Of a DNA stretch of 64,000 nucleotides, positions 24,516-48,404 are shown piece by piece (the stretch's first letter is position 1; every line of letters begins with the position of its first letter). A program made the position numbers and the translations under genes. The notes under the pieces are model-generated. The model saw only the letters and a program-made list of their open reading frames with translations, ran no database searches and was not told the origin of the DNA. The stretch is from positions 1-64,000 of IMG/VR virus record IMGVR_UViG_3300022924_000016, one strand, 5' to 3'. The DNA is from a virus.

Positions 24516-26054
24516 TTATTCTCTAGGAGAAATTATACTGATTACGTCTATGTTTAATAATAAAATCGCTGTTGCTTTCGCATTCTTTAAAGCTACTGAA
24601 ATACCTTTCTTAGAATCGATGATAGAGTCTTTCAAAAGATTTGAAGTTTCATCTGTTGAGCCGTTATAACCCCATCCATAAATTTCAAATGCTTTTTTAA
24701 GGTGTTCTTCGGGACTTCTTCTTGCATTTTGGCAAATCTGCTTTAGAGGTGATAGTAAAGCTCTCTTGAAAGCATCATAACCATATTGCATATCTGAATT
24801 TTCAAAGGTTTTGTTCATCAAATTAGAAATATGTGCCAAAGCTGAACCTCCTCCTGCTAGAGAACCCTCCAATAAGACTGATTTTACCGCTTTTATGGCG
24901 TCATCTACCCTGTCAAACACTTCTGATGCTCCAACTTCAATATCCCCCCCTACAACAACTGTAACGGATTTCCCTTCTAGAGTTTTTATGCGGTGATTTA
25001 AAAAGTCTGTGTCAATTTCAGCATCCTGACTCTGCAAGTTCCTAAGTTCTTGCAATTTCAAATCAACTTCTTGCTTTCTAGGATTCGTTATGTTGGTTGA
25101 ATTCAAGTTTACGGTTACTTTTTCTGCAAAACCTGCTTCCAAAGGTTCTTGCTGTCCTTGCCTATAGACTTTTCCGCCCGTATACAAAGCGATGTCTCTC
25201 ATTGTCTGCATCCTACTGTCATCATCTCTATACATGGGAGCTTCAATAAGCATTACGCTTGCTCCTGAAGCGACCACTTTAGCTAATTTCTCACTTGCGA
25301 AAGTGGGATCGCCCAAACGTTCAACAACTAATAAAACTGATTCTCCTTTGTTCTTCTTTGAATTGATATAGGATTTTACTTCTTCTGAATCATGCACTTC
25401 ATACCCTTCAAATACCAAGACGTTGCAATTATCAGCCTCAAATACCCCTTTGGCTTCGTTATTGATAAGGCTTGGCGTGAACCATCCTCTATCTAATTTC
25501 ATTCCCGTGGAAACTCTCAAAGAAACTGATTTTTCCTTTATGGATTGTATTGAATCTATGATTCCTTCTCCATTATTGGATTCTTCATAGGCTCTTGCAA
25601 TAATTTCTCCAATGTTTTTATCGTTATTGGCTGAAACTGTTGCAATGTCCCTTACTGTTTTCTTTGTAGTTTTCTTGGCGAATTTATTGAGGTACCTTTG
25701 AGCATCTTTATGTGCCTCTTCCATACCGAACTCCATTTTCTTGTTAAAGTTTTCTCCAATTTCTTCTACTAGGGATTGAGCTAGGACTAGAGTTGTTGTG
25801 GTATTATCCCCAATCTCTGTCAAAGTTTTAACGGCCGCCTGTTTAGCCAGAAGAACGCCCTGATATTTCACAGGGTCATTCTCTAGGATATGTCGGGCAA
25901 CAGAAACACCGTCTTTGGTAACTTTAGGTACTCCCATTTGGGTATTCTCTAAAACAGCGAGTTTTCCCTCTGCCCCTAAAGTTCTTTTTACGGCGTTGCA
26001 AACTATATTAAAACCTTCCAATAAATCTTTTTTATCTCCTACTAATGTTGCCAT
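24516..26054 (-). CDS. GroEL-like chaperonin, 512 aa
   Basis: Group I chaperonin signatures appear in order: TKDGVSVARHI (ATP site), GDNTTTTLVLAQ (the GDGTT nucleotide loop with its Asp), an apical-domain region GMKLDRGWFTPSLINN, a VGGDIEV turn, and RVDDAIKAVKSVLLEGSLAGGGSAL, in which the ATP-hydrolysis Asp and the GGG turn are kept. It is slightly shorter than bacterial GroEL (about 545) and lacks the C-terminal GGM tail. Key catalytic residues look intact, so it is probably an active folding machine. Phage GroELs are known in a few large phages. It starts 3 bases from the end of the preceding gene. A GroES-like gene occurs at 41427 on the other arm. Confidence 0.9.
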   Translation of the reverse strand: MATLVGDKKDLLEGFNIVCNAVKRTLGAEGKLAVLENTQMGVPKVTKDGVSVARHILENDPVKYQGVLLAKQAAVKTLTEIGDNTTTTLVLAQSLVEEIGENFNKKMEFGMEEAHKDAQRYLNKFAKKTTKKTVRDIATVSANNDKNIGEIIARAYEESNNGEGIIDSIQSIKEKSVSLRVSTGMKLDRGWFTPSLINNEAKGVFEADNCNVLVFEGYEVHDSEEVKSYINSKKNKGESVLLVVERLGDPTFASEKLAKVVASGASVMLIEAPMYRDDDSRMQTMRDIALYTGGKVYRQGQQEPLEAGFAEKVTVNLNSTNITNPRKQEVDLKLQELRNLQSQDAEIDTDFLNHRIKTLEGKSVTVVVGGDIEVGASEVFDRVDDAIKAVKSVLLEGSLAGGGSALAHISNLMNKTFENSDMQYGYDAFKRALLSPLKQICQNARRSPEEHLKKAFEIYGWGYNGSTDETSNLLKDSIIDSKKGISVALKNAKATAILLLNIDVISIISPRE

Positions 26055-28000: not shown

Positions 28001-28660
28001 CTATTTTTTAATTTCTAGTTGGTCAAGTAAGATTGAACAGTTTGTTAAACACGCCGCTAAATGGTCTTTAAAATTTTCTTCATCTCCTTCAATAGGTTGA
28101 ACCATTTTCTTTACATGTCTGAATAATGCCCATAAAATCTGCTGTTTGTCTAGAGGTTTTTTACTGTTACCGTGTTCATATTTACCTTTATTCGCCGAAA
28201 ATCTGTCAGCCATCAAATCTAAAATACCTAAATTAATTTCGGAGTAGTCTGCTTTATTGACTGTTTCTTTTTTACCTTCTGTTGTTTGAAAGGCAGGTTG
28301 TTGCCACTTACTTTCCCACTGTTTAATAACTTTCTGTTCGGCTAGACCTTTATTAAGCTCTTTTTGCCTTTCTTGATTTGCTTCTGAAAGTTTATCTTCT
28401 CTGAATAGTCTATTAAACTTTGCATCTTCCGCTCTATTTAGAATATTTCCCACACTCTTTAACAAAACATCAGATTGAGCCCTATTTAATTGTACTTTTC
28501 TAGCTTGGTCAATAAGCTCTTTACCCTTATCTGTCATTGAACCTGCCCCAATATCTTGTAGTTCTGTACTTGGTTTGGCGGGCGAACAATAAAAAATAAC
28601 ATCAATATCTTTTGAAGTGGTATTCACATTTGTAGTTTTTCCGTTTTCAACTTTAATCAT
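28001..28660 (-). CDS. possible MazG/DUF5664-like phosphohydrolase, 219 aa
   Basis: An N-terminal charged helical part precedes a C-terminal block (about 145-219) with DLMADRFSANKGKYEHGNS and LWALFRHVKKMV, EGDEENFKDHLAACL. The arrangement RF...KY...AL.RH...E...HLA is that of the all-alpha MazG-type fold in dATP/dGTP diphosphohydrolases (DUF5664). The assignment is tentative. The region between resid 60 and 130 is a coiled coil. Confidence 0.45.
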   Translation of the reverse strand: MIKVENGKTTNVNTTSKDIDVIFYCSPAKPSTELQDIGAGSMTDKGKELIDQARKVQLNRAQSDVLLKSVGNILNRAEDAKFNRLFREDKLSEANQERQKELNKGLAEQKVIKQWESKWQQPAFQTTEGKKETVNKADYSEINLGILDLMADRFSANKGKYEHGNSKKPLDKQQILWALFRHVKKMVQPIEGDEENFKDHLAACLTNCSILLDQLEIKK

Positions 28661-29004: not shown

Positions 29005-29050
29005 CAAAAAATGTGTTAGTCACTACGATACTAAAGAGCTTCCACGACAC
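29005..29050 (-). terminator. terminator-like hairpin after the tRNA locus
   Basis: On the minus strand GTGT (29047-29050) pairs with ACAC (29013-29016) and TAGT (29030-29033) with ACTA (29017-29020), giving 8 bp with a bulge, followed by ATTTTTTG. It could end the RNA that starts at 29366. Confidence 0.5.
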
Positions 29051-29054
29051 TATA

Positions 29055-29087
29055 ATAAGGAAATCCGAAGATACTCCTAAGCTGTAA
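29055..29087 (-). ncRNA. UUCG-capped hairpin in the tRNA leader
   Basis: Within the RNA downstream of the tRNA, GGAGTATC-TTCG-GATTTCC on the minus strand (about 29055-29073) pairs over 7 bp with one bulge and carries a stable UUCG tetraloop. A second small hairpin CCTC/GAGG (29101-29114 region) lies between it and the tRNA. Positions are approximate. Confidence 0.4.
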
Positions 29088-29124
29088 TCTCTGTCTACGT
29101 TCCTCACGTCTGAGGATAATCTTG

Positions 29125-29197
29125 TGGTTTTGGAGAATTACGATATCCCGACCCTTGAATTATGAGTTCAACGCTCTTACCTCTGAGCTACAAAACC
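29125..29197 (-). tRNA. tRNA-Met, anticodon CAT
   Basis: A 73-base cloverleaf: acceptor GGTTTTG/CAAAACC (7 bp), D-arm GCTC/GAGC with GG in the loop, anticodon stem TTGAA/TTCAA with loop CTCATAA, variable GGGTC, T-stem of 4-5 bp. CCA is not encoded; the 3' end is A. The T-loop reads ATCGTAA and lacks the usual TTC, so function is not certain. CAT could also be an Ile tRNA after lysidine modification. Confidence 0.8.
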
Positions 29198-29205
29198 TTT
29201 AAAAA

Positions 29206-29271
29206 TAAACCTATAAATATTGATGCTGGTTTCATCTACATCCTGAGCTTGCGGAAATACTTATAGGTTTA
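29206..29271 (-). ncRNA. 66-nt hairpin with a 16-bp stem
   Basis: Arms TAAACCTATAAGTATT (29271-29256 on the minus strand) and AATATTTATAGGTTTA (29221-29206) pair over 16 bp with one G-U pair, enclosing 34 bases. It lies directly before the tRNA. It may guide processing or be an independent RNA. No known ribozyme core was found. Confidence 0.5.
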
Positions 29272-29365
29272 ATAATTTAATTAGAACTATACTCTCATTT
29301 CTGATTCGTGCGCCTATACCTAGAGGTAAAGTATAATTTTTAGGCAACTAATTAAATTTCTTATG

Positions 29366-29396
29366 CAAATATACAACCATTATTCCAATAAAACAA
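29366..29396 (-). promoter_or_regulatory. promoter TTG-N20-TATATTTG before tRNA locus
   Basis: -33 TTG at 29394-29396, spacer of 20 bases, -7 TATATTTG at 29366-29373. It starts transcription of the structured RNA locus and perhaps the operon at 28947-23741. Confidence 0.75.
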
Positions 29397-29412
29397 ATCG
29401 ATTAACCTAAAA

Positions 29413-44194: not shown

Positions 44195-44614
44195 ATGACG
44201 GAACAATTAAAAAATAAATTTGAAGAAAAATACAAGTCTTGGAAAGCCTATACAAACTACATTGAATCAAACCAAGAACAGTTAAAAGAAAAACAGAAAG
44301 ACTTCTCTAAAAGAGTTGTAAACATCACCACAAAGGAACAGATGGAAGAACTCTTCAAACTTCAAGGAGAGCCAGGAAAACATCTTTCAGACCATACAAA
44401 TCTCTCAAATGACTTAGTTTTGCTTTATAGTTTGTTCACAGATAAGTCAGAATTCCCGCAAGAAGTAAAAGACGACATGGAAAAGCTAGGAACAAGAAAA
44501 TTATACTATATCGTAACAGACGGAAAGCTTGTCAAGATAAATGAAGAAATCCATGAAATCGCAAAAGAGCATTTCTACCAAACAATGCAAAACGTTTTGA
44601 CACTTGGAAAATAG
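44195..44614 (+). CDS. hypothetical helical protein before terminase, 139 aa
   Basis: MTEQLKNKFEEKYKSWKAY begins an almost fully helical, charged protein (QLKEKQKDFSKRVVNITTKE, DDMEKLGTRKLYYIVTDGK). It overlaps the terminase start by 11 bases, so a small terminase subunit is the natural guess, but no motif proves it. Confidence 0.7.
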   Translation: MTEQLKNKFEEKYKSWKAYTNYIESNQEQLKEKQKDFSKRVVNITTKEQMEELFKLQGEPGKHLSDHTNLSNDLVLLYSLFTDKSEFPQEVKDDMEKLGTRKLYYIVTDGKLVKINEEIHEIAKEHFYQTMQNVLTLGK

Positions 44615-47600
44615 TAGCAACGAGCAGATTGATGAGTTCATAAAAAGAAATAGTCCCCGATTCAAGAAGTGGAAACAGCATTTAGATGATTTCGATTGGA
44701 GCAAGGACGTTCACCTTTTATTTATAGAAGAAAAAGACATAGTTATGTTCGGAAAGACGGCGAACTATGAGCACGAATTTTATCAAAAAGATAATGAATT
44801 TAGAGTACAGGTCGGTTTAGTTAAGAAAATACTAGACCGACTTAAGTTTTTTATAGACAAGTCAAAAGGAGATTATAAAAATCCCAAGTTCAAGGCATTT
44901 TTCAAACTCGCCACAAACATAATAAGCATCCACCTAAAAAGATGTGACAAGTATTCCTTAGAAATTGACGAGACGGATATAAAAATCCACGATCTGAGAA
45001 GCAAGGAAGCAAAGTTCAATTCAGAAGTATTCGCAGAATATTCAAAAGTTGACAGCACTCTAAGTTCATACGGCTTCGTTGAAGAGGAAGATAAAGGCTC
45101 AGACTATATTGAGTTCTTTGATAACAAGAAAGCTTCTCTAGCAGTCTATAAAGAGGTTGTCAGAGATTTTCCCGCAGTAAAGGAGAAGATGAAAACAATG
45201 AAAATTGATTTTGACTCTTTAGCTCCCCAAAACTTACACATATTAAATGAAAACCCACCGATATGGAATCCAGAAAAACACTTCTGGGAGCAGGAAAAAG
45301 AAACAGTTCAATATTATGTGGATGAGTTAAAAAAGATAGAAGACGGAGTAGAGATTGACGGAGTTTACTTTGATGGATGGATATACTACCACATAAATCA
45401 TTTCAGAGTTAAGTATCCAACAACAGTAATGGTTAATGGGCATCCAAAATCTAAAGATGTTACAGGTAGACCCCCTTTAAGGGACAATGAGTGGATTATG
45501 TCTGAATATTTTATTAAGGCTAGTCGAGAACAGGGTTATGCACTTATCGCTGCCACAAGACGTGCCGCTAAGACAACTTTAAATGCGTCTCGTGTTGAGA
45601 GGGCTAAAGTTCTTGGTAGAATGGGTATATTATTAGCAGGCGGGTCTTCCTCAGATTTAGGTCAGATTATTGATAATTGTAAGGTCAATATGGATAATTG
45701 TGAACCAGCCTTTGCATTAGATTCTTTAGGGGAAACTAAAGAAGGTAAGGGAGAAGAATTTGGTATTAGAACGAAAGACAATAAACGTAAACGACATGCT
45801 GCTTTATATGTTAAAAATCTCGACGGAGGAACTAATAAGAAAAAAGGTGAATCCTTAGCAGGATTCACTATTGATGAATTTATTTTAGATGAGGCTTTCA
45901 AATTTCCTTTTATGAATCAACTACAAGGATTGGAACCAGCTTTGTTTGGAGAAGGTGTAATGAGAGCAACGCCATTACTAACAGCTTGTGTTTGTGCGGG
46001 AACTAAGGTTTGGAATAACGAAGGTAATTTAGTAAATATAGAAGATTTAAAACAAGATGATGGAATTGTAGGTTTTGATATAATTGAAGAAAAAATATCA
46101 AAAGAAAACATAACTTACTGGCAAAAACCTATTGAAAAAGAATGTTATAGATTGACAACAAATAAAGGAAGAATTCTTGAATGTAGTCATGATCATCCTA
46201 TATTAACTCGTACAAGAGATGCTTGGGATTTCAGAAAAGGTAGAGATAAACCTTTTAGAAAAATGTTTTTTGACAAGACTGAAAATTTAAAAGTAGGTCA
46301 AAATATAGGAACTGTTGAAAACATTCCAATCGAAGGTAATAATAGAATGTGGAATCCAAGACTGGTGGGACTTTTAATAGGAGATGGAAGTTATGGTAAA
46401 GATAAAACACCTATTTTATCCAACTGTGATGAAGAGGTAAATTCATATATCTCTAACAATTTTGATTGTATAGTAGAAAGGGAAAGGCTTACTTTAGATG
46501 GAAAACATTATAAAGAGACAAGAATAAAAGGAATAACTAAAGAATTAAGAAACTTAGGTATATATGGACAAACTAAAAATAATAAAAGATTGCCATTAAA
46601 CGTACATTCTTATAGAAACGAAGATATTTATGAATTGGTTGCAGGACTAATAGATTCCGATGGACACGTAAGCATATCAAAAAATAATGCTACTATTGGA
46701 GTAACTTTTTCAGGAATAGAATTAACAAGAGAATTACAGCTCTTGTTACAGAAAATAGGAATACATTCTAATATACAAAAAAAGATGCCGAGTAAAAGTA
46801 GCTATGGTACAAATCCATATTATACTCTACAAATATTAGACAGAGATAGTATATTAGTTTTTTGCGAAAAAATAAAATTATTAATTAAGTATAAGCAAAT
46901 TAATTTAGAGAGATTAATTGATATCTATAAACACAGGAAGAGTGGGGCAAAACAAAAAAATTTAAAGAATATAAGATTTGAAAATATAGTAAGTATAGAA
47001 AATATAGGTCTCAAACCTGTATATAATTTAACTGCTGAAAATACTAACACCTATATTGCAAATGGGATAATAACACATAATACAGGAGGCGATGACGAAT
47101 TAGCAGCAGACGGTATAAAAATGTTGAGCAATCCTGAAGCAAATAAGGTGATTTTAATGAATTGGGATGACTTGAATAGAGGTGTTCCTAGCGAGCACAA
47201 AACTTGGACTGAAAGACCTTTTGGACTATTTTTACCAGGTCAAATGTCGATTAGATTCGGCCAAAAGAATGCTATGACTATGAGTGACTATTTAGGCTTA
47301 AAAGCTGAAAATTGTCCTAGTCTCTCAAAACTTATAATAGGCGTTACTGATTGGAAAAAAACACTTGACAATATAAATATAGAGAGAGATAATAAAGTTA
47401 GCGATAAAAAAGCTTATGTTAAATTACTTGCTTATCATCCAATAGACCCCTCTGAAATATTTCTTTCGGGTAAAGTTAATCCCTTTCCTGTTGCAGAAGC
47501 AAAAGCTCACAGAAAATATTTATGGGAATCAGGATTGTGGGATAGACGTAGAGAACTCTACAAGGATTCAAATGGAAAGATACAAGTAGAACTTTCGCAG

Positions 47601-48404
47601 AGACCCTTGATTGAATACCCGTATAAAGGAGTGATGGATGCACCATTTATGATTTTTGAAAACCCTCCTGAAAACAAAGTACCGATAGGTACATACACTG
47701 CTGGATTTGATGATTATAAGCAAGAAGACTCAGACACTGATTCCGTTGCTACCTTTTATGTTTGGAAGAATGAAATATTAGGTGATCCATTCTCTAAAAA
47801 AATTGTAGCTTCTCTTTCCATAAGACCTCTAAAGCATAAAACAGTTTGGGAAAAATGGTTATTATTGATGGAAGCTTATCAGTTAGAGACAACTTGCTTC
47901 GGTGAGAATGAAGATTTTAAAATTAAAGACTTCTTAGACAATAGACAATTAACTGAAAAATATTTAGCCAATAGCTTAGACTTCACTTCAAGTTTCAATA
48001 GACCTAATAATGAAAAGCGTAAATTTGGGTGGACTCCTAGGGCAGTAAAGAGATTCATATTTGACTTTTTTGTTGAATACTGTAATGAAACTTTCGACAT
48101 AGAAGTTGAAGATAAACAGACAGGTGAGATTAAAATAGTCGAATTAAAAGGAGTACAAAGAATAGACGATATCTACCTTTTAGATGAAATCATTTCTTAT
48201 CAGGAAAATGCCAACGTCGATAGGATTATCGGGGCAATGGGTGGTTATGCTTATTTAGAATATTTGATAAAAGCTTTGCATTGGGTGCCCTCAAAATCCT
48301 TCGATAGGTTTAAGGGAAGAAAAGAAGAAGCCAGAAAAGAAATACAAAGAACAAAGTCTTTCTACCAAAAAAATCTAAAACCGACTTACCGATCAAGACG
48401 TTAA
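44604..48404 (+). CDS. terL: terminase large subunit with intein, 1266 aa
   Basis: Starts with TTG at 44604, overlapping the upstream gene. Extein: Walker A-like ATRRAAKTT (about 318-326), Walker B FILDEA (about 426-431), the coupling motif ...TPLLTA directly before the intein and TGGDDE after it, and a nuclease part with GFDDYKQEDSDTD (about 1035), FGENEDFK (about 1095) and DDIYLLDE (about 1188). Without the 365-residue intein the mature protein is 901 residues, large for a terminase, with a long N-terminal extension of about 300. It packages phage DNA into capsids. Confidence 0.9.
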   Translation: MENSSNEQIDEFIKRNSPRFKKWKQHLDDFDWSKDVHLLFIEEKDIVMFGKTANYEHEFYQKDNEFRVQVGLVKKILDRLKFFIDKSKGDYKNPKFKAFFKLATNIISIHLKRCDKYSLEIDETDIKIHDLRSKEAKFNSEVFAEYSKVDSTLSSYGFVEEEDKGSDYIEFFDNKKASLAVYKEVVRDFPAVKEKMKTMKIDFDSLAPQNLHILNENPPIWNPEKHFWEQEKETVQYYVDELKKIEDGVEIDGVYFDGWIYYHINHFRVKYPTTVMVNGHPKSKDVTGRPPLRDNEWIMSEYFIKASREQGYALIAATRRAAKTTLNASRVERAKVLGRMGILLAGGSSSDLGQIIDNCKVNMDNCEPAFALDSLGETKEGKGEEFGIRTKDNKRKRHAALYVKNLDGGTNKKKGESLAGFTIDEFILDEAFKFPFMNQLQGLEPALFGEGVMRATPLLTACVCAGTKVWNNEGNLVNIEDLKQDDGIVGFDIIEEKISKENITYWQKPIEKECYRLTTNKGRILECSHDHPILTRTRDAWDFRKGRDKPFRKMFFDKTENLKVGQNIGTVENIPIEGNNRMWNPRLVGLLIGDGSYGKDKTPILSNCDEEVNSYISNNFDCIVERERLTLDGKHYKETRIKGITKELRNLGIYGQTKNNKRLPLNVHSYRNEDIYELVAGLIDSDGHVSISKNNATIGVTFSGIELTRELQLLLQKIGIHSNIQKKMPSKSSYGTNPYYTLQILDRDSILVFCEKIKLLIKYKQINLERLIDIYKHRKSGAKQKNLKNIRFENIVSIENIGLKPVYNLTAENTNTYIANGIITHNTGGDDELAADGIKMLSNPEANKVILMNWDDLNRGVPSEHKTWTERPFGLFLPGQMSIRFGQKNAMTMSDYLGLKAENCPSLSKLIIGVTDWKKTLDNINIERDNKVSDKKAYVKLLAYHPIDPSEIFLSGKVNPFPVAEAKAHRKYLWESGLWDRRRELYKDSNGKIQVELSQRPLIEYPYKGVMDAPFMIFENPPENKVPIGTYTAGFDDYKQEDSDTDSVATFYVWKNEILGDPFSKKIVASLSIRPLKHKTVWEKWLLLMEAYQLETTCFGENEDFKIKDFLDNRQLTEKYLANSLDFTSSFNRPNNEKRKFGWTPRAVKRFIFDFFVEYCNETFDIEVEDKQTGEIKIVELKGVQRIDDIYLLDEIISYQENANVDRIIGAMGGYAYLEYLIKALHWVPSKSFDRFKGRKEEARKEIQRTKSFYQKNLKPTYRSRR
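45987..47081 (+). mobile_element. LAGLIDADG intein inside terminase
   Basis: The intein spans residues 462-826. It starts with the catalytic Cys in CVCAGTKV, has block B as LECSHDHPILTR, LAGLIDADG helices at LVGLLIGDG (about 590) and LVAGLIDSDG (about 695), and ends VYNLTAENTNTYIANGIITHN with HN followed by Thr as the +1 residue. All elements for splicing and homing are present, so it is likely active. Insertion is in the ATPase coupling motif, a favoured site because it is conserved. Confidence 0.95.

Follow-up and report, generated by a model that had tools for sequence, protein, structure and literature searches.

What purpose is served by a noncoding stretch of a phage genome in which a transfer RNA (tRNA) gene stands among several other elements capable of folding? 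The question is raised by positions 29005-29396 of a 64,000-nucleotide (nt) stretch of DNA, here called the window, which comprises positions 1 to 64,000 of the 141-kb IMG/VR virus record IMGVR_UViG_3300022924_000016. An earlier note on this DNA took the locus for a polycistronic RNA with unusual members, and as a genomic architecture this notion is borne out by sequence comparison, since related phages rearrange discrete units behind a kept promoter. The members are likewise unusual in that none save the tRNA matches an Rfam family and that one of them, module H, turns up again in a phage that appears to be unrelated. The locus lies on the minus strand and reads promoter, module A, hairpin H, CAU tRNA and module D ending in U6, and the tRNA, the 16-bp hairpin, the paired arms, the CCTC/GAGG hairpin and the UUCG hairpin described in the note are all found where it placed them. 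The units are as follows, L002 to L005 being loci of related phages and L014/L019 that of a further phage.

29366-29397, minus strand: predicted Bacteroidetes-type promoter, TTTG-N20-TATATTTG
29274-29358, minus strand: module A, with a 93% identical cassette in L003
29206-29271, minus strand: module H, with copies in L003, in L005 and, with another outer stem, in L014/L019
29125-29197, minus strand: tRNA with anticodon CAU (Met or Ile2), Rfam RF00005, 53.9 bits against a cut-off of 29
29006-29115, minus strand: module D, present in L003 and L002 (89% identical)

Comparison with the relatives reveals a common promoter sequence, unit boundaries and unit swapping, along with conserved folds and a conserved core. 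The protein encoded at 28001-28660 was used as anchor and led to L002 (146-kb contig), L003, L004 and L005 (144-kb contig), of which L003 and L004 are partial contigs; an anchor in the upstream gene returns the same four. Promoter and flanking genes are constant in the window and the four related loci, and what lies between them is mixed.

First unit: A in the window and L003; B in L004 and L005; C in L002
Second unit: H in the window, L003 and L005; a predicted pseudoknot, K, in L002 and L004
tRNA: CAU in the window and L003; His in L002 and L005; an odd CAU-like element in L004
Module D: present in the window, L003 and L002; absent from L004 and L005

In L002 and L004 homology to the window ends at 29356-29357, immediately past the predicted RNA start, and in L002 it picks up again at 29117. 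B is common to L004 and L005, which part at its end, K is common to L002 and L004, and tRNA-His to L002 and L005. Judged from these alignments, the homology borders are the unit borders, most of which fall in U-rich linkers. Mosaicism extends to the neighbouring protein genes, so that the stretch in its entirety is a variable region. The L002 phage (record G001) carries a capsid protein 100% identical over 565 amino acids to that of the window phage, and despite this its first and second units are non-homologous to those of the window and tRNA-His replaces tRNA-CAU. No homology between units was found. The earlier note had named conservation of nothing besides the tRNA as the outcome that would speak against it; units other than the tRNA are in fact conserved in the related phages. 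The fold of K was drawn by eye from two sequences and is offered as a proposal. Modules B and C, otherwise unrelated first units, have TATTGTAAGCTA in common.

Module H is the unit whose conservation reaches furthest, and two of its parts can be placed as follows.

29271-29256 with 29221-29206, minus strand: 16-bp stem (P1), the 16-bp hairpin of the earlier note
29245-29221, minus strand: invariant core of 25 bases, CAGGATGTAGATGAAACCAGCATCA

It also contains a TCC/GGA hairpin and a GATG/CATC hairpin, and its fold is well beyond that of shuffled sequences (z -4.3). A covariance model built from the window, L003 and L005 copies finds H in L014/L019 (E 5.6e-7), where the 25-base core is identical and the outer stem is different in sequence yet still paired. 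In the phage concerned (115-kb contig) a relative of the window phage's capsid protein is not detectable, and its H copy sits in a 212-nt noncoding stretch with a long closing stem and a U-run after it, which folds at z -3.4 with no shuffle as good and has no adjoining tRNA. H, whose 25-base core does not vary between two phages that seem unrelated, offers a concrete new RNA motif for structural and pull-down work. The core also gave 23 matches in GTDB genomes, all of them lacking the surrounding stem and taken to be chance, the best bacterial match of the H model falls within a coding frame (QPQDVGET, probably of a replication protein) and was likewise judged chance, and the pattern CAGGATGTAGATGAAAC matched one further phage group, there inside an apparent coding gene. 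In the phage sharing H (G003) there are two Leu-like tRNAs (L079:1501-1608 and L081:1501-1604), which measure 104-107 nt and have oversized variable regions; one is preceded by an RNA that has a long stem and a U-run (AAAGCATGTGA...TCACATGCTTTTTTT), the other by a TTTG-N20-TATATTTG promoter. A group I intron (L079:2133-2357, Rfam 95.3 bits) is found about 0.5 kb downstream of a phage tRNA.

Modules A and D are known from fewer copies, and here it is the pattern of substitutions that points to conserved folds. Their predicted parts are listed below.

29358-29348 with 29284-29274, minus strand: outer stem of A, AATTTAATTAG/CTAATTAAATT, which encloses the inner arms and was absent from the earlier note
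29338-29331 with 29292-29285, minus strand: inner stem of A, AATTATAC/GTATAGTT, read from the sequence
29345-29341 with 29316-29312, minus strand: candidate pseudoknot of A, GCCTA/TAGGC
29311-29293, minus strand: conserved single-stranded stretch of A, 19 bases, GCACGAATCAGAAATGAGA
29115-29102, minus strand: hairpin of D, CCTCA/TGAGG, the CCTC/GAGG hairpin of the earlier note
29078-29058, minus strand: UUCG-capped hairpin of D
29050-29013, minus strand: stem of D, GTGT/ACAC plus TAGT/ACTA, followed by TTTTTT at 29011-29006

Module A also holds a small hairpin, TACC/GGTA, in which an A-U pair in one of the window and L003 copies corresponds to G-C in the other by a double change. All four substitutions outside this hairpin sit in predicted pairs and keep the pairing (chance 0.017, for a structure that was drawn in knowledge of both sequences), and two of them are located in the pseudoknot, which we put forward as a proposal. 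In the three sequences of D, three pairs are changed on both sides and 98.4% of cells are paired, against 38-49% and no double changes in slid controls; 35 of 500 shuffles equal the real result, as expected from so few sequences. The folding energies of D alone and of B alone are ordinary. A 42-nt match to the middle of A in one Flavobacteriaceae genome (L067:1495-1536, 89%, E 5.6e-6 for one genome) lies in apparently coding DNA and was judged chance once 400 genomes are counted.

The tRNA scores above the family cut-off of the RF00005 covariance model and forms a cloverleaf. Its T-arm, GGGAT-ATCGTAA-TTCTC, is non-standard and lacks the usual TTCRA T-loop with closing G53-C61, and it seems to be for this reason that ARAGORN reports no tRNA gene at 29125-29197. 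The odd arm is identical in L003 and so does not stem from a read error confined to a single assembly, and given such an arm the CAU element may be regarded as tRNA-like in function only with reservation. No other tRNA was found in the 141-kb record; by record, G000 has one tRNA, G001 one of a different isotype and G002 two. That G000 and G001 differ in the isotype of their single tRNA speaks against codon supply being the only reason for carrying one, and the frequent use of AUA (2.7% of codons) could justify a tRNA-Ile2, but not its exchange for tRNA-His. In L004 the corresponding CAU tRNA-like gene (L004:4215-4290), reported by neither ARAGORN nor Rfam, is without a normal D-arm and has a D-arm-like stretch (GCGTAGTTGGTTACACG) after the anticodon arm.

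As for the ends of the presumed transcript, the promoter that had been said to begin at 29396 was located at 29397-29366 and is present in all four relatives with both hexamers kept and a varying spacer. The sequence TTTG-N20-TATATTTG fits the Bacteroidetes promoter consensus, a motif known from Flavobacterium/Bacteroidetes, and an RNA start is expected near 29360. By itself the motif is not strong evidence, with six matches in the window against 2.6 expected from a Markov control, and a scan for E. coli-type promoters misses it, being blind to this consensus. Where a terminator-like hairpin had been placed near 29005, the presumed end consists of U6 behind a weak two-part stem, and an E. coli-type scan gives no consensus terminator at the locus end.

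How such a locus might work can be outlined as follows. Our tentative preference, held with somewhat less than even confidence, is that several compact RNAs and one tRNA are produced from one promoter and act in trans against host factors, in counter-defence or host takeover. One host-type promoter would give rise to a transcript with separately folding small RNAs (A, H and D) and one tRNA; since the units are stem-closed and mostly end in a U-rich linker, recombination within the linkers could exchange them, and they would probably be processed into separate stable RNAs. During infection these RNAs would affect host factors in trans, most likely in counter-defence or host takeover, the tRNA replacing or evading a host tRNA that a defence nuclease attacks, and the compact RNAs imitating, or acting as decoys for, host RNAs to which toxins or defence proteins bind. 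We infer transcription, processing, stability, action in trans and a counter-defence role. A constant promoter, exchangeable RNAs and a changing tRNA isotype fit abundant infection RNAs selected by a changing partner. The swapping and the presence of H in an apparently unrelated phage furthermore suggest that the units are working RNAs rather than filler.

A number of observations weigh against this reading. The fold of the whole 386-nt stretch barely beats shuffles (z -1.7), and the case consequently rests on conservation and not on folding energy, while the sequences behind the units amount to two distinct copies of A, three of D and four of H. Neighbouring small protein genes are mosaic too, so that swapping is not unique to the RNAs, and in L004 and L005 the cassette lacks D and passes straight into a protein gene, so that the RNAs could be a leader. 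No host target emerged from searches for Rfam, CRISPR-repeat or antitoxin matches, and the H covariance model gave no convincing match in about 800 Bacteroidota and Flavobacteriaceae genomes.

The main rival, which we consider rather unlikely yet worth serious attention, holds that the units have no trans target and are exchangeable 5' leader or processing elements in cis, which protect, punctuate or attenuate an early-operon transcript and release the tRNA. Such a function would agree with the first units A, B and C starting a few bases from the predicted RNA start like a stabilizing 5' stem, with the stems followed by U-runs, which resemble attenuators, and with the gene directly after the tRNA in L004 and L005. 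A simple stem would however do for this purpose, yet H holds 25 invariant bases and A a conserved 19-base single-stranded stretch, and H is also found in the other phage's separate 212-nt closed RNA, which has no neighbouring tRNA. That the tRNA alone matters and the remaining sequence is drifting recombination debris is improbable: the modest fold of the stretch, the ordinary energies of D and B and the mosaic nature of the region are all in line with it, but the H core is identical across phages with unrelated capsid proteins, which already weakens this notion, the substitutions in A and D keep pairs, and the unit borders are precise. The earlier statement that no open frame exists is nearly right, the exceptions being a frame of 28 codons in A that starts with TTG and one of 49 codons across D that starts with GTG. 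That the units encode small peptides, of 28-29 codons in A and 49 across D, is a very improbable explanation even though the A frame stays open in L003 with an in-frame 3-base insertion, since the D frame is broken in L002, no ATG start is found, and the four substitutions in A outside its hairpin all preserve base pairing but include just one that is synonymous. Least probable of all is mimicry by H of the GTPase-associated centre of 23S ribosomal RNA (rRNA). When H is aligned locally to a stretch of Flavobacterium rRNA, one scoring scheme does place the best alignment at that centre, but the score of 14 compares with a shuffled mean of 12.6 and maximum of 15, a second scheme favours another site, and the GGCU/AGCC stem of the centre is absent from H. 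Mimicry of rRNA was likewise rejected for H, A, D, B and K, none scoring above shuffles, and module C resembles rRNA only at an AT-rich spacer.

Structured RNAs of unknown function have long been seen in phage tRNA regions, and among them RNAs C and D of phage T4 are small stable RNAs of unknown function from a tRNA cluster. The likeness to the cassette, compared by description only, is that of small RNAs alongside phage tRNAs, and to our knowledge swapping of units among sister phages is not known for T4. GOLLD and ROOL are structured noncoding phage or prophage RNAs found near tRNA islands, again with unknown function (PMC12286853). The cassette resembles them as a phage-encoded structured RNA next to a tRNA, but theirs are large single RNAs (GOLLD often >800 nt), whereas the cassette consists of mixed units of about 65-110 nt with no Rfam match; their covariance models gave no match at gathering score in the window or relatives and none at E 5 in the cassette.

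The phage PhiTE encodes pseudo-ToxI, which is a mimic of an RNA antitoxin and is altered through repeat expansion as well as recombination (PMC3475682). Like the cassette units it is a small phage RNA with a pseudoknot fold and recombination-driven change, and it counters a host system (PMC3475682), but it is a repeat resembling the host antitoxin, whereas the cassette has no tandem repeat and no host counterpart was found; A, H and D are single and mutually unrelated, unlike the tandem repeats of a short pseudoknot unit that mark type III antitoxins and their phage mimics. Phage tRNAs are known to evade retron-Eco7 and PrrC (PMC11555353) and, more generally, retrons and anticodon nucleases (PMC11555353, PMC10264068). 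These are likewise promoter-driven phage tRNAs whose isotype can be an adaptive trait (PMC11555353, PMC10264068), but the cassette tRNA is one exchangeable unit beside other folded RNAs. These tRNAs and pseudo-ToxI provide a precedent for each half of the pattern, which is part of our reason for preferring counter-defence or host takeover in trans. Noncoding RNAs near phage tRNAs being already known, the novelty lies in units that match no Rfam family and in the way these are exchanged like cartridges. It is possible, though doubtful, that Bacteroidetes phages have loci built like cartridges, whose small structured RNAs are interchangeable, belong to several new families, are each directed against a different host defence or RNA-binding factor, share one promoter with a tRNA and are reassorted between phages; if so, these loci would be an RNA counterpart of anti-defence gene islands. 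Near-identical phages that differ in discrete RNA units in any case constitute a natural swap experiment, by which the effect of a unit on host range can be tested by exchange.

Searches for further relatives added little. The only Rfam match to the locus and its relatives is the tRNA, other cassette matches being at chance level and below gathering scores, and no family of known self-cleaving ribozymes, riboswitches or CRISPR repeats matched the cassette. Among viral contigs, a PhoH protein used as anchor gave no relatives, the D-core pattern recovered, apart from chance matches, just L008 and L023, which are known relatives from the contigs of L003 and L002 respectively, and the A-core and K-core patterns likewise known relatives and chance matches only. 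In annotated phage records the match is confined to the tRNA half, and when the DNA of A and H was compared with 400 Flavobacteriaceae genomes, nine weak matches appeared, which lie in AT-rich or coding sequence and were judged chance.

The window phage is, by its sequence, crAss-like, since its major capsid protein resembles those of the Cellulophaga phages phi4:1 and phi17:2 (33% identity) and of csAssE-Sib (31%), and its host is probably of Flavobacteria type. The RNA locus is flanked by a gene for a YunG-like protein and by small genes, which lead to a gene with a dGTP-diphosphohydrolase N-terminal domain. Elsewhere in the window the phage encodes a GroEL-type chaperonin (24516-26054, minus strand; Cpn60_TCP1, E 3.8e-42), and its large terminase subunit (44604-48404, plus strand) is apparently broken by an intein-like insert at residues ~510-780.
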